Source: Trichormus sp. M33_DOE_039 (GTDB taxonomy: Bacteria; Cyanobacteriota; Cyanobacteriia; Cyanobacteriales; Nostocaceae). Taken from it: a stretch of 39,180 bases of DNA. Positions 27,054 to 37,327 of the stretch are shown piece after piece. Location of the stretch: the NCBI GenBank assembly GCA_015296085.1, contig DVDT01000107.1, positions 1-39,180 of the forward strand. The letters run 5' to 3'. The notes below the pieces were generated by a model, which was not told where the DNA came from, searched no databases, and was given only the letters and a program-made list of their open reading frames with translations. The stretch's first letter is position 1. Every line of letters begins with the position of its first letter. Made by a program: the position numbers and the translations under genes.

Positions 27054-27509
27054 ATGAAAAAGCTAATTACTTTCATAGTTAGTGGCTTTTTATTGGTTGG
27101 TACTTTTGGTTGTGAAGAAGCTGCTAAAAAGGCTTCGGATATTCCTAATACCCCCAGCCCCAGTACAAATGTTAAAAAGACAACACAAACTACAGATAAA
27201 ATCACCAAAGCAACTGATAAATCAACTATTTTGCCAGTAAATGGTGCAGATAATAAAGCAAAAACTCAGACTCAGAAAACTTCAATTAGCAAAACTGATG
27301 CAGAACTGAAAACTGCCATTGGCAAAAAACTAGAAACAGGTTTACCTGGAAATAAATTGGTAATTGAAAATAATAATGGTGAAATTACCATTAAAGGTAC
27401 AGCTAATTCTAAAGCAGAACTAGCACAAGCTGAAAAATTAGTTAAAGAAGTTAAAGGTGTCAAGAGTGTAACAATAGAAGCACAAGTTAAATCTACAAAA
27501 AACTCTTAA
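27054..27509 (+). CDS. BON-domain lipoprotein
   Basis: 151 residues. Signal peptide MKKLITFIVSGFLLVGTFGC with a plausible lipobox Cys (position 20; Phe at -2 is unusual). Then a Thr/Lys/Asp-rich, low-complexity linker (about 25-80) and one BON domain (about 82-147), including VIENNNGEITIKGTANSKAE and VKEVKGVKSVTIEAQV. BON domains bind phospholipid membranes in the periplasm (OsmY type). A clear AGGAG ribosome binding site sits 7 bases before the ATG. Gene followed by a strong palindrome at 27581-27612. Envelope-stress protection is the family expectation. Confidence 0.85.
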   Translation: MKKLITFIVSGFLLVGTFGCEEAAKKASDIPNTPSPSTNVKKTTQTTDKITKATDKSTILPVNGADNKAKTQTQKTSISKTDAELKTAIGKKLETGLPGNKLVIENNNGEITIKGTANSKAELAQAEKLVKEVKGVKSVTIEAQVKSTKNS

Positions 27510-28127: not shown

Positions 28128-30017
28128 ATGACTGCATCATTCACCAATAATTCGATCAGTGCTGCAACTAATCCCAGTCTAGAAATAGCTAGACAGCAAT
28201 ATAAATATAACTACAGCTACATTCCACCGATCGCAATGGTGGATGAACTACCTGATGGGGAAGACTTCTCGACTAGATGGTTTTGTTTGTTAGCTCAAGA
28301 GTTAAAGATGATTTTTGTGAATACTTTGATTACCAACAGAGGTAATCGAGGTTCGCAATCAATTCGTGATGATGTCAAAAATTTCATTCTCGAAGCTATT
28401 CTCAAAGGGGCAATCCCGGCTAACATCAGTGTGATTGCCAGATTAATGCAAATTGTCCCTCAAATGCTGATTCGGGGATTTTCTACTGATTTCCGAGAAT
28501 TGGATGATTTGTTGTTTTCACTGGTCAAAGAAAGTGGACTCTTAATACTGGGGGATTCTTTCCAGCGCATTACCAAACTACTTGATCGAGGAAAACCTAC
28601 AGGTCATGTGAAAAGTTTGGCAGACTATCAAAAATTATTTCCCATCATCCCCACGCCAGCGATCGCCAAAACTTTCCAGGATGATGCCGAATTCGCCTAT
28701 ATGCGCGTTGCTGGCTACAATCCGGTGATGATTGAGCGAGTTACTAACTTAGGAGAACGCTTCCCCGTTAGCGATGCACAGTATCAAGCCGTCATGGGAA
28801 GTGACGATTCCCTCGCACTTGCAGGAGAAGAGGGTAGACTTTATCTCGCTGACTATGGAATTTTCAATGGTGGACTTAACGGGACATTTCCCAGCTATCA
28901 AAAGTATCTCTATGCACCTTTAGCACTGTTTGCAGTCCCTAAAGGCTCTAATCCCAATCGTCTGTTACAGCCAGTGGCGATTCAATGTGGTCAAAATCCA
29001 GAGGAAAACCCAATCATCACCCCGAAATCTAGCGAATATGCTTGGTTAATTGCCAAAACCATAGTTCAGATTGCGGATGCGAACTTTCATGAACCCGTCA
29101 CCCACCTAGGCAGAACACATTTATTAGTAGGGACTTTTGCGATCGCCACCCATCGTCAACTCCCCAACTCTCACCCCCTCTACTTGCTCCTCAAGCCTCA
29201 TTTTGAAGGGACTTTAGCCATCAATGATGCCGCACAACGCGCTCTCATTGCGCCTTTGGGTGGCGTTGACACTTTACTCTCATCCACCATTGATAATTCC
29301 CGTGTCTTAGCCGTAGTGGGATTGCAAAGCTATGGTTTCAACAGTGCCATGTTACCCAAACAACTGCGGCAACGCGGCGTAGATGATCCCAACCTCTTAC
29401 CTGTGTATCCTTACCGAGATGATGCCCTTTTATTATGGGATGCAATTCGGCAATGGGTTTCCGACTACATCAAGCTTTACTACAACACTGATCAAGAAAT
29501 TCAAAACGACGCATATATCCAAGCCTGGGCAGAAGAGGTACAAGCTTACAATGGCGGTCGCCTCACTGATTTTGGTGAAGATGGTGGGATAAAGACCAGG
29601 GAATATTTAATTGATGCCTCTACCTTAATTATTTTTACTGCCAGTGTACAACACGCCGCCGTGAATTTTCCCCAAAAAGATGTCATGGGTTACACTCCAG
29701 CCGTACCCCTAGCCGGTTATTTACCAGCCTCCATTCTCAAAAGAGAAGTCACAGAGCAAGACTACCTCAACTTCTTACCACCACTAGATCAAGCCCAACA
29801 ACAATATAACCTGCTGGCTTTGCTAGGTTCTGTTTATTACAATAAACTAGGCGAATACCCGCAAAAACACTTCCCAGATCCCAAAGTCGAACCCTTATTG
29901 CGATCGTTCCAAAGCCATTTGGAAGAAATTGAAACCACCATCAAAAAGCGTAACCGCGATCGCCCACCCTACGAATATCTACTACCTTCCCAAATTCCCC
30001 AAAGCATAAACATCTAG
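28128..30017 (+). CDS. Lipoxygenase (non-heme iron fatty-acid dioxygenase)
   Basis: 629 residues from ATG 28128, with GGAG five bases upstream; a TTG at 28110 is less likely. Catalytic lipoxygenase domain only, with no N-terminal PLAT/C2 barrel, as in other cyanobacterial LOXs. All five iron ligands are visible: His 326 and His 331 (THLGRTHLL), His 509 and Asn 513 (SVQHAAVNF), and the terminal Ile 629 (QSINI). IATHRQLPNSHPLYLLLKPH is the substrate-channel helix region. It inserts O2 into polyunsaturated fatty acids such as linoleate or linolenate to give hydroperoxides. Regio- and stereospecificity cannot be read by eye. Followed by two P450 genes on the same strand, probably one operon; separated from the first by 118 bp of repeat-rich DNA. 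Confidence 0.95.
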   Translation: MTASFTNNSISAATNPSLEIARQQYKYNYSYIPPIAMVDELPDGEDFSTRWFCLLAQELKMIFVNTLITNRGNRGSQSIRDDVKNFILEAILKGAIPANISVIARLMQIVPQMLIRGFSTDFRELDDLLFSLVKESGLLILGDSFQRITKLLDRGKPTGHVKSLADYQKLFPIIPTPAIAKTFQDDAEFAYMRVAGYNPVMIERVTNLGERFPVSDAQYQAVMGSDDSLALAGEEGRLYLADYGIFNGGLNGTFPSYQKYLYAPLALFAVPKGSNPNRLLQPVAIQCGQNPEENPIITPKSSEYAWLIAKTIVQIADANFHEPVTHLGRTHLLVGTFAIATHRQLPNSHPLYLLLKPHFEGTLAINDAAQRALIAPLGGVDTLLSSTIDNSRVLAVVGLQSYGFNSAMLPKQLRQRGVDDPNLLPVYPYRDDALLLWDAIRQWVSDYIKLYYNTDQEIQNDAYIQAWAEEVQAYNGGRLTDFGEDGGIKTREYLIDASTLIIFTASVQHAAVNFPQKDVMGYTPAVPLAGYLPASILKREVTEQDYLNFLPPLDQAQQQYNLLALLGSVYYNKLGEYPQKHFPDPKVEPLLRSFQSHLEEIETTIKKRNRDRPPYEYLLPSQIPQSINI

Positions 30018-30135
30018 GGAGTAGGGAGTGGTGAGTAGGGATAGGAAAAAGTCAAAAACTTTCATTCTTTTACCTTTTTACTTCCTTATCCCCAGTCCCC
30101 AATCCCTAGTCCCAATCCCCAATCCCCCAACAACT

Positions 30136-31485
30136 ATGCAACTCCAAGATAAAATCCTCAAAGCCCACGATCGCCAAGTCCGACTTTCATCTATTCTCGC
30201 TAAAGTCGGTAATACTAGCCCCATCGGTAGGCTGTTGCGATTAATTGTTTATTACTTAGAAGCCGCCATCATGTTAAGAAACTGGCGGAATTTTCTCTAC
30301 ATCCGCAAAGACAACATTGGAGAGAAATTTTTTGCCGTAGACCAAGCCGTTATTCATACTTCTTATTCAGAAGTCAAAAGGCTGATGCAGACTCAACCAC
30401 AACTCAGAGGCAATGATTTAGGCATCATTAGAATGCTTGCTCCTAGCTATCTCCTGAATAATCCCCTAAGTTTAGGGATGAATGGACAGGAACATCAAGG
30501 GGCGCGGGCTTTATTCTCCCAGGCTTTGCCCGACCCTTTGGAAACAGCAGAGTTATTAGGAGAACTAGTCAATCAAAATCTGGCGGATGCAACGAAAAAA
30601 GGTCAATTACATATTGGTAATGATCTACCAGAAATGATGATCCGGATTCTGCACCGACTTGTGTTTCAGATATCATTATCTGAGGAAGAAGTTAAAGCTT
30701 CCAAAGGTTTTGTCAACGATATAGCGATCGCATCTTTGCCTAATTTCGTTGTCAAGTATCTACTCGCATTTAGAACAGCCCCAACTATTAAACATCGTCA
30801 GCGTTTAATTGAGAAATACAAACAATCTCCTCAATGGGCAGCTTTTCGAGAAACCGGTTCTCGGTATCAATTAAATGAACACCAGATTGGTAACACCTTA
30901 TTCGACATGATTCATATTGCCGGGACTGCGGGGACAAGTGCGCTGTTAGGCTCAGTAATTGGTGTTCTTTGTCTTAATGAGAGTTTAAGAAATGATGTCA
31001 CAGCAGAGATCAATACTATCTGGAATAGTCAAGAACCCCTTAACAAATCTGCATTAGAAAAAGCTACAATCACCGAAAAAGTAATTTTAGAAACAGCCCG
31101 TCTTTATCCCCCCGTGCGATTTGTCAGTCAACTCGCCACTCAATCAGGTGAAATCCCCGTTGGGGATACAAAATGCCCATTCCAAAAAGGGACACGCTTG
31201 ATTGGTTCTATCTTCACAGCCAATCGAGATGCAAATAGATACGAAAATCCTGATACTTTTGATGTAACACGAAATTTTTCCGACAACTTATCTTGGAACA
31301 GCCACGGACATGAGCGAATTTGTCCCGGCAGATCATTATCAATTGGCATCATCAAGACATTCTGTTTACATCTGTTCCAAAAATATCAATGGCAATCATC
31401 AACAGAAGTCAAGTGGGATTTTGACAACGTTACAGCCGTATCTCCCAATGATTTAATCCTGCAAGGCTTTACTCAAAAACTGTAA
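30136..31485 (+). CDS. Cytochrome P450, atypical I-helix; likely acts on lipoxygenase hydroperoxides
   Basis: 449 residues from ATG 30136 (MQLQDKILKAHDRQVRL). The open frame extends upstream through repeat DNA, not used. ExxR motif ETARLYPP (Glu 319, Arg 322). Heme-ligand Cys 396 in SHGHERICPGRSLS, where the usual Gly four residues before Cys is His. The I-helix reads AGTAGTS (262-268): the acidic residue of [AG]Gx[DE]T is Gly, as expected for P450s that rearrange or use peroxides (CYP74, CYP152, CYP8) and not monooxygenases. A hydrophobic segment at about 31-46 could give monotopic membrane contact. Paralogous to the next gene. Likely product types are allene oxide, divinyl ether, epoxy-alcohol or lyase aldehyde; undetermined. 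Confidence 0.88.
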   Translation: MQLQDKILKAHDRQVRLSSILAKVGNTSPIGRLLRLIVYYLEAAIMLRNWRNFLYIRKDNIGEKFFAVDQAVIHTSYSEVKRLMQTQPQLRGNDLGIIRMLAPSYLLNNPLSLGMNGQEHQGARALFSQALPDPLETAELLGELVNQNLADATKKGQLHIGNDLPEMMIRILHRLVFQISLSEEEVKASKGFVNDIAIASLPNFVVKYLLAFRTAPTIKHRQRLIEKYKQSPQWAAFRETGSRYQLNEHQIGNTLFDMIHIAGTAGTSALLGSVIGVLCLNESLRNDVTAEINTIWNSQEPLNKSALEKATITEKVILETARLYPPVRFVSQLATQSGEIPVGDTKCPFQKGTRLIGSIFTANRDANRYENPDTFDVTRNFSDNLSWNSHGHERICPGRSLSIGIIKTFCLHLFQKYQWQSSTEVKWDFDNVTAVSPNDLILQGFTQKL

Positions 31486-31564
31486 ATAGTCATTAGTTTT
31501 TTCTTCCCCTGCTTCTTTTACTTCCCCTGCTCCCCCTGCTCTCTTCTCCCAATCCCCAACAACT

Positions 31565-32917
31565 ATGCAACTTAAAGATAAAGTCCTCAAAGCCCACGAT
31601 CGCCAAATCCGACTTGCATCTATTCTGGCTAAAGTCGGTAATACTAGCCCTATTGGTAAACTGCTGCTGTTCATTTTCTATTATTGGGAAGCCACCCTCA
31701 TCTTCACAAACTGGCGGGATTTTCTCTATATTCGCAAAGATAATCTCGGCAACAAATTTTTTGCCTTAGATCATGCGATCGTTCATTCTACTCACGCTGA
31801 TGTTAAAAGGCTGATGCAAAATGAGCCTCAAATTAGAACTAATTATTTAGGCATCATTAAAATGATGGCATCTAGCTATCTCCTCAACAATCCCCTGAGT
31901 TTGGGAACGAATGGTCAAGAACATACTGCTGTACGAGCTTTAATATTGCAAGCAGTACCAGACCCTTTAGAAAAGGCCGAAATATTAGGACAACTAGTAA
32001 ATCAAAACTTAGCAGATTTGTCCAAAAAAGGTCAATTACATATTGGCAACGATATACCAGCAATGCTGCTGCGAATTCTGCACCAACTTGTATTTGAGAT
32101 GTCATTAACTGAAGACGAAGTAACTAGTTCTAAAGCTTATATCAAAGATATAGGATTGGCATTGTTACCTAATTTCGTAGTCAAGTATCTACTGAGAAAC
32201 AAAAGCGCACCACTCATTGAACATCGCCAGCGTTTAATTGAGCGATATAAACAATCTCCCAAATGGGCAACTTTCTTAGAAATTGGTTCTCAGCATGGAT
32301 TAAATGAACACCAGATTGCCAACACCCTATTTGATATGACTCATCTGGCCGGAACTGCTGGAACAAGTGCGTTGCTAGGCTCAGTAATTGGCGTTCTTTG
32401 TCTCAATGATGGCTTAAGAAATGAGCTAACAACAGAAGTAAATAATATCTGGAATGGGCAAGAAACCTTTAATCAATCTGCCTTAGAAAATGCCACACTC
32501 ACCGAAAAAGTAATTTTAGAAACAGCCCGTCTCTATCCTCCCGTGCGGTTTGTCAGTCAATTTACCAATCAATCAGGTGAAATTTCCTTTGGGGAAACAA
32601 AATGCCCATTCCAAAAAGGGACGTTGTTAATGGGTTCTATCTTCACGGCCAATCGAGATCCAAATAGATACGAAAATCCTGATAATTTTGATGTAACACG
32701 AGACTTTTCCGACATCTTATCTTGGAATAGCCAAGGACATGAACGAGTTTGCCCCGGTACTTCCTTATCAATTGCCATCATCAAAACATTTTGCTTGTAT
32801 CTATTACAAAAATATCAATGGCAATCATCAACAGAAGCCAAATGGGATTTTACCAACTTTAAACCCTTCACGCCAGATGATTTAGTCCTTCAAGGCTTTA
32901 CTCATAAATTTGAATAA
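31565..32917 (+). CDS. Cytochrome P450, tandem paralogue of the preceding gene
   Basis: 450 residues, same length and motifs as its neighbour: ETARLYPP, heme Cys 396 in SQGHERVCPGTSLS, and the same AGTAGTS I-helix without an acidic residue. By eye, about 70% of aligned residues match; differences cluster at residues 36-50, 75-130 and 270-300, some likely lining the pocket. The 79-bp gap has C-rich low-complexity DNA, and the sequence just before both ATGs is almost identical (CCCAACAACT), so the promoter-proximal segment was duplicated along with the gene. Two retained copies suggest different substrates or products from the same lipoxygenase. Confidence 0.88.
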   Translation: MQLKDKVLKAHDRQIRLASILAKVGNTSPIGKLLLFIFYYWEATLIFTNWRDFLYIRKDNLGNKFFALDHAIVHSTHADVKRLMQNEPQIRTNYLGIIKMMASSYLLNNPLSLGTNGQEHTAVRALILQAVPDPLEKAEILGQLVNQNLADLSKKGQLHIGNDIPAMLLRILHQLVFEMSLTEDEVTSSKAYIKDIGLALLPNFVVKYLLRNKSAPLIEHRQRLIERYKQSPKWATFLEIGSQHGLNEHQIANTLFDMTHLAGTAGTSALLGSVIGVLCLNDGLRNELTTEVNNIWNGQETFNQSALENATLTEKVILETARLYPPVRFVSQFTNQSGEISFGETKCPFQKGTLLMGSIFTANRDPNRYENPDNFDVTRDFSDILSWNSQGHERVCPGTSLSIAIIKTFCLYLLQKYQWQSSTEAKWDFTNFKPFTPDDLVLQGFTHKFE

Positions 32918-32988
32918 ATCAACAGTTTTTCTCTCTGTGCTTCTGACTCTGGTTGATCCAAACTGTAATTTACACAGATGTACTCATA

Positions 32989-33540
32989 ATGATTTATTCC
33001 ATCGAGAAAAAGCAATTTGATGATATTGCCACTTGGATGATCCCAACCCAAGAAACAAAATTACCCAGTGTGTTAAAAGGTGTATTTTTTATGGATGGGA
33101 ATCCTGCACCAGATGATTGTATCACCATGTACAATCTAGAATGGGATGAACAAAACTATACTTTGTCTCTCCCCGTTTACGCGCCTTTGCAATGGACTTT
33201 TGAAGACTCAATTTTGGGAAAGATATTACTGCGTTTAGTGCAACTAAGTAAGCTAACTTATAAAATTCAGTTTACAGATGCAAGCTTGAAAAAAGCGCAA
33301 GTTATACCCTTTGCCTTCGGTATAGAAATTCCTTTATGGTTGATTAATGCCACCATGCAACAAGACGAAAATTCTCCAAACGGCGATACTTGGCAACGCA
33401 AAAATATTTGGTTGAGTATCATTCCTAGGTTTGCTGATTACACACTGCGGAGAATTGTCGATGAACAAGGTCATTACACTCCTGCTTTTCAAGATATGTT
33501 GACCAAAGTGCAGAAAGAATGTTTAGTAATTGTCGATTGA
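32989..33540 (+). CDS. Unrecognised 183-residue protein following the P450 pair
   Basis: 183 residues from ATG 32989 (MIYSIEKKQFDDIATWMI). The frame continues up to a TTG at 32953, less likely. Starts 71 bp after the second P450, same strand. No signal peptide or transmembrane helix. Mixed alpha/beta, with aromatic-rich strands (LSLPVYAPLQWTFEDS, VIPFAFGIEIPLWLINA). A conserved-looking KGVFFMDGNPAPDDCITMYN segment follows the N-terminus. No family recognised. By position it may bind or isomerise the P450 product, as allene oxide cyclase does in plants, but no sequence match to that family was seen. Confidence 0.75.
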   Translation: MIYSIEKKQFDDIATWMIPTQETKLPSVLKGVFFMDGNPAPDDCITMYNLEWDEQNYTLSLPVYAPLQWTFEDSILGKILLRLVQLSKLTYKIQFTDASLKKAQVIPFAFGIEIPLWLINATMQQDENSPNGDTWQRKNIWLSIIPRFADYTLRRIVDEQGHYTPAFQDMLTKVQKECLVIVD

Positions 33541-34186: not shown

Positions 34187-37100
34187 TTAAGAATTATTGT
34201 AAGCATCTGCGAAAGCCGAATCTTGCATTAACTCTGGAGGTATGTTTAATGCCCTATTTAGTCCTGTAGCATTTAGCCACTTTGTATTACTATTCCATAC
34301 AACTGCATCAAGATTGACATTGCGGAGGTTGGCTTTGCTGAAGTTGGCATTGCGGAGGTTGGTTTTGCTGAAGTTGGCATTGCGGAGGTTGGCATCGCTG
34401 AGGTCGGCATCGCTGAGGTCGGCATCGCTGAGGTTGGCATAGCCGAGGTTGGCAAAGCTGAGGTCGGCATCGCTGAGGTTGGCATTGCTGAGGTTGGCAA
34501 AGCTGAGGTCGGCATTGCTGAGGTCGGCATCGCTGAGGTTGGCATTGCTGAGGTTGGCATTGCTGAAGTCGGCATTGCTGAGGTCGGCATTGCTGAGGTC
34601 GGCATTGCTGAGGTTGGCATCGCTGAAGTCGGCATTGCTGAGGTTGGCATCCCAAAGTCTGGCAAAGCTGAGGTTGGCATTGTTGAGGTTGGCATTGTTG
34701 AGGTTGGCAAAGCTGAGGTCGGCATTGCTGAGGTCGGTATCCCAAAGTCTGGCATTGCTGAGGTCGGCATCCCAAAGTCTGGCATTGCTGAGGTTGGCAT
34801 CCCAAAGTCTGGCATTGCTGAGGTCGGCATTGCTGAGGAATAATCCTAAATTTTCTCTAAAAGCAGAGACACTTAGACAGTGACTATAACCGATAATACG
34901 CAGCAAGCGTGCTGATTCAAATTGAGTAGTATTTGGTTTACCGCACGGGTGAAAATTGATATGGTCTTTGATGTCATCTTTTGATCGGGCGTAACGATGC
35001 AACTCTAGCAGCACAATCATCACATTCAGCCCTGTATATACATCCACCTGACGCAAACCCAAGTGAGTTTCTCTGTCTGGTAATTGCTCCCTTAATTGTT
35101 TTTTCTTAATCTGGGGTAAGTTGGTATCTTCTGCATCAATAAATTCACCATCGCACCAACGAAAGTAAAACTCTTCTAATCTTTGAAAGAGGTTTACCAA
35201 ACGTCCCGCATCTTGAAACTCTGGAGTTGTAACCAACAAACCCATTAAATAATCGACAATTTCACGGGTTAAATTCCCATAACCAAGCAAATCATAAATC
35301 TGCTTATTCATCGCATCTGTCGGAACAAAGTCTTCTTCTCGCTGACGTTTCTTGACCTTAGTTGTCCAATCCACAAAGCTTTCTATTAACCGTTCTCCAA
35401 ATAAAAACTCGCTAAAACTCTTGTGGACAAATTCCACTGAGCCACCTTTATCACCAGAGGCTGGTTTGATATAAAAGGCTGTCAACAAATTATTAAGTAA
35501 CTTCTGTTGTTGATTTTTTTCCGAGGGACTTTCATGTCTAGCTTGCTGAATTAACTTAGCAGCTGGGCTGTTACTATCTTTATCATTAAGCCTTGCTTCT
35601 AATATCGCCAATCTTGCAGATTCATTCCCCGACTGCACTACACACAATGCTGCTTCAGTTAAGAACTGCCGTAAATCTTCACTTTCTAAATTAGTCAAGC
35701 GATCATTTTCATCCCCTCGTTGTTTTTCTAAAACCCATCTCACCGACTGATCATAAATACGGATTTTCGCCTGGATACCTTCTGCACCTGCAAACATCTG
35801 CACATTAAAATGTTTTTCTCGGTGCATTCGTCCTAATAAATAAAGTAGTAAAGGTTCTCGTGCTAATTTATTTTTAATTTCATCAGGACAAGCCTGCAAA
35901 AACTGCTCAAATTCCTTCGCTTCTTGTTCACCAACTTTTGCAGTCCATTTATTCAGCCAATTTTCCCGAATTGTGTCATTCATTGGCTGAAGTTCAACAC
36001 GCTTTAAACTTTTCGTTTGTGAAAGTAGGCGGTCTATTCCTTGTAATGCCAAAGGACGACCTGTCACTAAAAACTGATGATGGCAAAAGCTATCTTTTTG
36101 AAATCTTTCAACCTGTTCCAAAAATTCTTTCAAGCCGCCGCTAGCTCTTCCTTCTAGTAATAGCTCATCAAAACCATCCAATAAAAACAAAAATCTGGTA
36201 TTTTTATCCGTCAGCCAGCCGGAATCACTCTGAACAAAATCCAGGTTTTCTAAATAGTTCTCCAGCGTATCAGTCAGATTATCTTTTAAAACCCGCAAGT
36301 CCCGCAGCCTAATTAAAACAGGAGTAAAGCTGGGATGTAATTCTCGCCTCACCAAGTCGGCAAACATCCGGCAAAATACACTTTTACCCCGTCCAGCTTC
36401 CCCCTGAATAAACAAGACTTGTTTCGGCTTTTTTGGGTCCGAGTCACGAAGAATTGTTTTAACCCAATCTTCCAAGTCAATATTTTTATCACTGATACTA
36501 GCAACTTCTTTGACTTGCAAAGGTACATACAAATCTTCAAAGGTAATCTGAGTTTCATCAAAAATATATTCTTGAGGTTTCGGGGCAATTACTGTTTCTA
36601 AATAATCTTCAATACTCAGATGTTTCTCTAGTTTCTCCTTACCTCCTGCACTATACCAGTCCACCAATTGCTTGACTTTATCCCCAACTTTGACCAACTC
36701 CGACAACATATAGTCATCAGTCTTGCGTGCTACCTGTTGAGTAATATCTTCTGCGGCTTCTGTTTTTAACCCAGCCTCTTCCAATCTTTGCTGTAAAATC
36801 TGATTAAATGCTTCCGCCAGTTGCGACTCATGAAAATAAGCGATCGCTTTTTTAGTTTCTCGCTCCTCAAAGTCTTGCTCACCTAATTTCTGAATCTGCC
36901 TAGCTAAAGCATCAGAAGCTTTACTGTCTAGATTAATATTCTTAAATAACTCCTGTTTTTGTTGGCAAATTTCTTTAAAACTATCTATATAAGCAGCCTG
37001 ACTAACTAGCAGCACACAGTCTGATAAACTCGGCTCTTGCTTAGTAGCATCACAAATAACCTGAAGTATAGTAATAGCAAGCGGCGCAAAGGGAATTACT

Positions 37101-37327
37101 TCTTTAGTAATTTGACCTAAAGGGCTATTAAATACATCAAATAATGAAGAAAACTGTTCGACATAGGGTTTAAGGTTTTGCAAATTGGGTTTATTTTCTT
37201 TAACCGCTTTTGCCAAATCAAACACAGCTTTAGCAGCTTCCGCGCCAGTCTTGGTTGCTTCTACTCTTTCACCCCAATTCAAATCTTGAATATTTTTCAA
37301 GAACTTTCGCAGTTTTCTCATCACCAT
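34187..37327 (-). CDS. NACHT NTPase with C-terminal pentapeptide repeats (STAND / NLR-like)
   Basis: 1046 residues. Helical N-terminal effector or adaptor region (about 1-230), unassigned. NACHT domain about 300-470: Walker A GEAGRGKS (309-316), Walker B RFLFLLDGFDELLLEG (Asp 384), and sensor LVTGRPLAL. A helical NACHT-associated region with EFVHKSFSEFLFGERLIESF follows. Pentapeptide repeats A[DN]LSx at about 833-1005 form a right-handed quadrilateral beta-helix. STAND NTPases oligomerise on ligand binding; bacterial NACHT proteins include phage-defence sensors. The sensor here would be the pentapeptide array. No second defence gene is adjacent. ATG 37327 is preferred, with an AGGA 9 bases upstream. 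An ISAs1 element lies 124 bp upstream. Confidence 0.9.
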   Translation of the reverse strand: MVMRKLRKFLKNIQDLNWGERVEATKTGAEAAKAVFDLAKAVKENKPNLQNLKPYVEQFSSLFDVFNSPLGQITKEVIPFAPLAITILQVICDATKQEPSLSDCVLLVSQAAYIDSFKEICQQKQELFKNINLDSKASDALARQIQKLGEQDFEERETKKAIAYFHESQLAEAFNQILQQRLEEAGLKTEAAEDITQQVARKTDDYMLSELVKVGDKVKQLVDWYSAGGKEKLEKHLSIEDYLETVIAPKPQEYIFDETQITFEDLYVPLQVKEVASISDKNIDLEDWVKTILRDSDPKKPKQVLFIQGEAGRGKSVFCRMFADLVRRELHPSFTPVLIRLRDLRVLKDNLTDTLENYLENLDFVQSDSGWLTDKNTRFLFLLDGFDELLLEGRASGGLKEFLEQVERFQKDSFCHHQFLVTGRPLALQGIDRLLSQTKSLKRVELQPMNDTIRENWLNKWTAKVGEQEAKEFEQFLQACPDEIKNKLAREPLLLYLLGRMHREKHFNVQMFAGAEGIQAKIRIYDQSVRWVLEKQRGDENDRLTNLESEDLRQFLTEAALCVVQSGNESARLAILEARLNDKDSNSPAAKLIQQARHESPSEKNQQQKLLNNLLTAFYIKPASGDKGGSVEFVHKSFSEFLFGERLIESFVDWTTKVKKRQREEDFVPTDAMNKQIYDLLGYGNLTREIVDYLMGLLVTTPEFQDAGRLVNLFQRLEEFYFRWCDGEFIDAEDTNLPQIKKKQLREQLPDRETHLGLRQVDVYTGLNVMIVLLELHRYARSKDDIKDHINFHPCGKPNTTQFESARLLRIIGYSHCLSVSAFRENLGLFLSNADLSNARLWDANLSNARLWDADLSNARLWDTDLSNADLSFANLNNANLNNANLSFARLWDANLSNADFSDANLSNADLSNADLSNADFSNANLSNANLSDADLSNADLSFANLSNANLSDADLSFANLGYANLSDADLSDADLSDANLRNANFSKTNLRNANFSKANLRNVNLDAVVWNSNTKWLNATGLNRALNIPPELMQDSAFADAYNNS
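34320..34830. repeat. Tandem 15-bp DNA repeats encoding the pentapeptide array
   Basis: About 34 units of 15 bp (variants of the minus-strand ladder GCCGACCTCAGCAAT). Several longer units are repeated too, notably a 30-bp unit coding for ARLWDx-LSN, used four times. Identity at DNA level is high, including third positions, pointing to recent expansion or gene conversion. It creates spurious open frames on both strands. Confidence 0.85.

Follow-up and report, generated by a model that had tools for sequence, protein, structure and literature searches.

The closest described counterparts of the genes reported here are the plant cascade of 13-lipoxygenase, CYP74 allene oxide synthase (AOS) and allene oxide cyclase (AOC), and the catalase-related oxylipin routes of cyanobacteria. 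According to the cited passages of PMC10813956, CYP74 enzymes need neither O2 nor a redox partner and differ in the I-helix groove, and the part of PMC8124189 cited here gives as their hallmarks an Asn in this groove, a nine-residue insertion in the heme-binding domain, an ERR triad and a PPV domain. Scission of the O-O bond can proceed with or without an axial Asn, with thromboxane synthase and fungal AOS among the examples in the cited section of PMC13049297. The published cyanobacterial routes, in the portions of PMC11719350 and PMC13049297 cited, use catalase-related proteins, as in the catalase-related lipoxygenase fusions and the 10S-DOX with its catalase-related hydroperoxide lyase. Here we describe a gene cluster in a 39,180-nt stretch of Trichormus sp. 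M33_DOE_039 (contig DVDT01000107.1, or C45, of a 7.0 Mb cyanobacterial genome; the whole stretch is called the window), in which a lipoxygenase (LOX) gene is followed by two cytochrome P450 genes and a gene for a new protein, X. Like the routes just cited, as far as those sources go, it is cyanobacterial and would make and convert fatty-acid hydroperoxides; unlike in them, the candidate converting enzyme is a P450 and the LOX is a separate protein.

The four genes lie on one strand with intergenic gaps of 118, 79 and 71 nt. The LOX gene (28128-30017, +) encodes 629 aa from ATG 28128, or 635 aa from an alternative upstream TTG, and is matched by PF00305 with 208 bits vs a curated cut-off of 23.6 (E 3.4e-61). 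P450-A (30136-31485, +; 449 aa; p450 E 6e-20) is the ortholog of the single P450 in other triads, and its start at ATG 30136 was chosen because relatives align from that point. P450-B (31565-32917, +; 450 aa; p450 E 1.2e-19) is a divergent tandem duplicate of P450-A, as seen from its position in the tree. X (32989-33540, +; 183 aa) carries the motifs LPxxLxGxFFMDGNPLPD and QWTF and represents a new protein family, with no Pfam family at E <= 1 and no NCBIfam match. These open frames and coordinates agree with a preliminary description of the window, which had listed a LOX, two paralogous P450s and an unrecognised 183-aa protein.

The conserved unit is LOX, P450 and X, in this order and with one P450, and many filamentous cyanobacteria carry it. 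It was surveyed in 217 genomes of the family, which were searched with the LOX, P450-A (E <= 1e-30) and X proteins; G146 was included in the counts though its LOX and P450 each contain a stop. The P450 was present in 58 genomes and X in 62. X adjoined the P450 on the same strand in all 58 P450 genomes, and a triad-type LOX was directly upstream of the P450 in 55 of them. In the other three, the P450 was at a contig start (G153), the LOX was 2.3 Mb away on the chromosome (G012), or a divergent LOX was found ~4 kb upstream on the same strand (G095). X occurred without P450 at a contig end in G192 and as short or broken matches in G105, G168 and G184, and a LOX without P450 was found in G192, G208 and G209. 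The dN/dS values against G205 were low for P450-A (0.12), LOX (0.11) and X (0.10). The order LOX-P450-P450-X, which the preliminary description had proposed to look for in other genomes, is thus conserved except for the second P450, which does not belong to the unit. In G095 (Mastigocoleus testarum), the gene between the divergent LOX and the P450-X pair (L071:5137-7728) encodes an 863-aa FAD-dependent oxidoreductase (DAO), which also has a weak D-Ala-D-Ala-ligase-like part.

A scan for X across a collection of 84,980 species, using two short degenerate patterns, gave 44 loci. All were titled cyanobacteria, and the genera included Nostoc, Calothrix, Tolypothrix, Rivularia, Leptolyngbya and Adonisia. 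A P450 was beside X in 43 of these loci and a LOX was in the locus in 39; among the remaining five, three (L099, L120, L125) begin at a contig end and two (L106, L111) lack the LOX. One triad belongs to a Peltigera cyanobiont. As the order recurs across genera, chance is far from sufficient to explain the arrangement. Searches of viral contigs and plasmid records did not find X. More distant X genes were missed by the two patterns and found by a later order-wide profile, so these results do not establish that X is confined to cyanobacteria. It could be argued that nothing but shared descent keeps the three genes together and that they serve unrelated processes, as most triads are in one family and the P450 profile matched 8 of 386 genomes of the phylum, all from that family. 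Against this, the flanking genes are not common to the loci: when flanking open reading frames were clustered, no cluster covered most loci, the widest comprising 11 (in mixed positions) and the next 5. G012 also keeps P450 and X together though its LOX is elsewhere, and X is also found, differently arranged, with LOX and P450 proteins of other types, as described below. We therefore regard shared descent alone as a very improbable explanation.

An X profile applied to 388 genomes of the order matched 45, including 24 outside the source family. A LOX was present in 22 of these 24 genomes, the exceptions being G501 and G789, where X is broken or partial. From the 24 genomes, 20 X loci were taken, and in 13 of them X was beside a P450-like protein (P450-II) of 445-466 aa and 21-24% identity to P450-A. 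One of the 13 (L200) has LOX followed by X with a gap of 78 nt and the P450-like gene following in convergent orientation. The X locus of L196 has a P450 of the first kind (P450-I, 51% identity), and a LOX was 0.7 and 2.2 kb from X in L201, where it is broken, and L202, respectively. Three P450-II members had no Pfam match and two no NCBIfam match, and a P450-II profile found no P450 in the PDB. P450-II aligns with P450-I by profile (probability 97.7, E 2.4e-12), and ExxR and the heme RxC were present in all 30 members longer than 400 aa; it is called a P450 because of this kinship and these motifs. P450-II was found in 37 of 376 genomes of the order. At 19 further P450-II loci, a LOX was near in 10, on the same strand with gaps of 21-185 nt (L209, L218-L221, L223, L224) or convergent at 0.9-1.1 kb (L207, L208, L214). 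P450-II genes such as L191:5451-6812, and those of the related loci L189-L225, adjoin X and/or LOX in many loci.

Both P450s of the window match Pfam p450 (PF00067) with 71.9 and 70.9 bits vs a curated cut-off of 22.8, over the C-terminal half only. In a search of the whole genome they scored 67-69 bits over this half; five other P450s of the genome scored 272-287 bits, and a sixth was matched in two pieces (81 and 59 bits). E319 and R322 of the ExxR motif and the heme Cys C396 were found in 48/48 rows of the P450 family alignment. The I helix has the motif H[I/L/V]AGT[A/L]GT. Aligned by a tool to ferruginol synthase (5ylw, GGSDTN), the acid corresponds to A265 and the Thr to G266, and since A/L265 and G266 occupied these places in all rows, the acid-alcohol pair of O2-activating monooxygenases is absent throughout. 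P450-II has Q291-G292 at this place (30/30 rows). Among control P450s from the own and related genomes, [AG]Gx[DE]T was kept in 33/34 (exception L155), and all six other P450s of the own genome retain it. A missing acid-alcohol pair would fit a P450 that consumes the LOX hydroperoxide.

Some monooxygenases are known that lack parts of the acid-alcohol pair, and P450-I is a P450 by Pfam. It might be a monooxygenase that depends on a reductase, has an unusual I helix and hydroxylates the LOX product, with X as a carrier. However, acid and alcohol are both replaced in every row and differently again in P450-II, and none of the neighbours that the loci share was recognisable as a redox-partner gene. 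Such a monooxygenase is accordingly a rather improbable alternative. Another possibility is a peroxygenase that uses the LOX hydroperoxide as oxidant for a different substrate, as CYP152 enzymes do with H2O2. These are peroxide-driven fatty-acid P450s, and they were among the best 60 of 352 matches (E <= 10) in a profile search of the PDB with E-values of 3.3e-6 and 3.6e-6. Ordinary P450s scored better in the same list. The CYP152 I helix carries an Arg-Pro pair; no Arg was seen at 246-275 in the P450 rows inspected, and the Cys loop and the LOX partner also set the locus P450s apart. We rate a peroxygenase as slightly less credible still. CYP74A2 ranked 19th among the same 60 matches (E 4.1e-5), again behind ordinary P450s. 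A structure model of P450-A (pLDDT 75.3; below 50 in the Cys loop 384-393) matched generic P450s in the PDB, and its active-site residues could not be placed because the model was too uncertain.

We consider it reasonably probable that the genes form an oxylipin module of LOX, P450 and X, in which the P450 takes the LOX hydroperoxide directly and X binds or converts the product. Three findings strengthen the pathway idea: the gene order is conserved, the O2-activation residues are missing, and X and LOX are found again with P450s of a second lineage. According to this hypothesis, the LOX would make a fatty-acid hydroperoxide, and the P450, with no need for a reductase or O2, would split its O-O bond on the heme and then rearrange it. 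Candidate products are an allene oxide, an epoxyalcohol, an ether or a cleavage product; X may bind or convert this hydrophobic or unstable compound. Judged from the gene sequences, the best reading is a bacterial cascade separate from plant CYP74/AOC. The LOX-P450 oxylipin pathway suggested in the preliminary description thus gains from the module and the residue changes, and loses its two-P450 design.

Residues H321, H326, H509, N513 and the C-terminal I629 of the LOX, which we take to be the iron ligands, are all present, as the preliminary description had noted. In 29 LOX relatives, H326, H509, N513 and I629 were kept in all and H321 in 27. The closest solved relatives are the 15-lipoxygenases 8x8f and 4g32. 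Where a Nostoc-titled locus contains a LOX, its frame is 630 aa long (15 of 15), the length given for NpLOX1 of Nostoc punctiforme in the cited part of PMC10177866. Judged by this length, the LOX is probably an NpLOX1 ortholog. NpLOX1 is described as a linoleate 13-LOX with a preference for alpha-linolenate (PMC10487465, passages cited), so the product would probably be a 13-hydroperoxide if the orthology holds. A reading of stereochemistry from residue 379 (G in 25/29) was dropped as too uncertain. The own genome has a second LOX (L175:1-690, contig C112), which is cut off by the contig end.

Several observations weigh against the LOX-P450-X module. LOX genes are common anyway in the family (166/217 genomes), which makes the adjacency the stronger argument, and G208 and G209 retain the LOX without P450 or X. 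Neither partner was nearby in 4 of the 20 X loci outside the family (L187, L188, L203, L204), and no LOX was found in the stretch examined at 9 of the 19 further P450-II loci, several of which are short contigs. The triad LOXs L038 and L039 have Gln at the iron ligand H321, with P450 and X intact. Among the 34 control P450s the best Pfam scorers predominate, which biases the set towards ordinary P450s, and the P450 of the module is only weakly related to any solved P450. Moreover, two CYP74 hallmarks are absent: the I-helix Asn (FDMIHIAGTAGTS; no Asn at 254-275 in the P450 rows inspected) and the nine-residue insertion, W387 to C396 spanning 9 residues. The usual F-to-C spacing at the heme loop is two shorter than this. 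E319, R322 and R379 are invariant and YP[P/A]V is found at 324-327, residues similar to which are carried by many P450s. P450-I may work like CYP74; given the absent hallmarks and the better matches to ordinary P450s, we do not class it as CYP74.

The 44-row family alignment of X has 28 invariant columns, with D36, N38, D53, Q68, R137, N139 and Y151 among the polar ones. An AlphaFold2 model (pLDDT 91.2) has eleven strands and three helices, with the last strand after the C-terminal helix. Foldseek gave no significant match in the PDB (best E 0.057 in the best 50 of 525 rows). Lipocalin-type barrels made up 31 of these 50 rows, namely 17 nitrophorin, 4 LTBP1, 3 OMCI and 7 Tp0751 rows, none significant and with TM up to ~0.4, so the modelled fold resembles such barrels weakly. 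Plant AOC is itself a lipocalin-like barrel. No AOC was among the best 50 rows and none was matched by Pfam, and a Foldseek search of a viral library had no meaningful result. A cyclase role for X is speculation. The logic of the plant parallel drawn in the preliminary description holds, in that a third, possibly barrel-shaped protein accompanies a LOX and a P450 that lacks the O2-activation pair; the P450s fail the two CYP74 hallmarks, X is not detectably an AOC, and here the genes are clustered as a bacterial module. A complete independent counterpart of LOX-AOS-AOC, in which a P450 from one of two new non-CYP74 lineages would dehydrate the hydroperoxide and X, as a new barrel family, would cyclise or protect what is formed to yield jasmonate- or OPDA-like cyclic oxylipins in bacteria, seems unlikely, if still conceivable.

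P450-B is a lineage-specific duplicate that evolves faster. It is 73% identical to P450-A, and two P450s at the locus were found only in the source genome among the 217 of the family. A tandem pair as pathway design, as first described, is thus not borne out. In a tree of 53 P450s, P450-B was placed as sister to the pair formed by P450-A and the single G205 copy (support 100/100), which indicates a duplication in this lineage, with the second copy lost from or lacking in G205. Its terminal branch is 0.28 vs 0.039 for P450-A, and at 209 columns conserved in the other 46 rows it departs at 33, compared with 8 for P450-A; leave-one-out departures in other rows had a median of 5, with 17 in L033 (G205) and 50 in L071. 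The dN/dS of 0.26 between the two copies, together with that of P450-A against G205, shows that P450-B is still constrained. It retains the heme Cys and ExxR, and its changed residues include 92-103, 259-261, 354 and 425-438; its substrate or product is probably altered.

A P450 near a LOX was reportedly mentioned in a 2007 account of LOX cloning from N. punctiforme, so part of the synteny may have been noted earlier. We found no description of a LOX-P450-X cluster in cyanobacteria in the literature searched, which left subscription papers mostly uncovered, and the word "lipoxygenase" appears nowhere in the main text of a cyanobacterial P450 survey (PMC7014017). If correct, our hypothesis would add a P450-based oxylipin cascade that is organised as a module of bacterial genes and differs from both plant CYP74 and the catalase-related route of cyanobacteria, and would bring two P450 lineages, one of them unseen by Pfam, and a new protein family into fatty-acid oxidation. 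Some of the host bacteria live with lichens. With only three small genes involved, the origin of such cascades would be directly testable.

A scan for promoters and terminators gave matches no more numerous than in shuffled sequences and is thus uninformative on transcription. Short repeats of the CCCCAATCCC kind, similar to each other, occur in the gaps before P450-A (30018-30135) and P450-B (31486-31564). A small BON-domain protein is encoded upstream of the LOX at 27054-27509 (+), and a similar one is also upstream of the LOX in G209, which is without P450 and X. On the other side of the cluster, 34187-37327 (-) encodes a NACHT ATPase with an NNH3 N-terminal domain and pentapeptide repeats.

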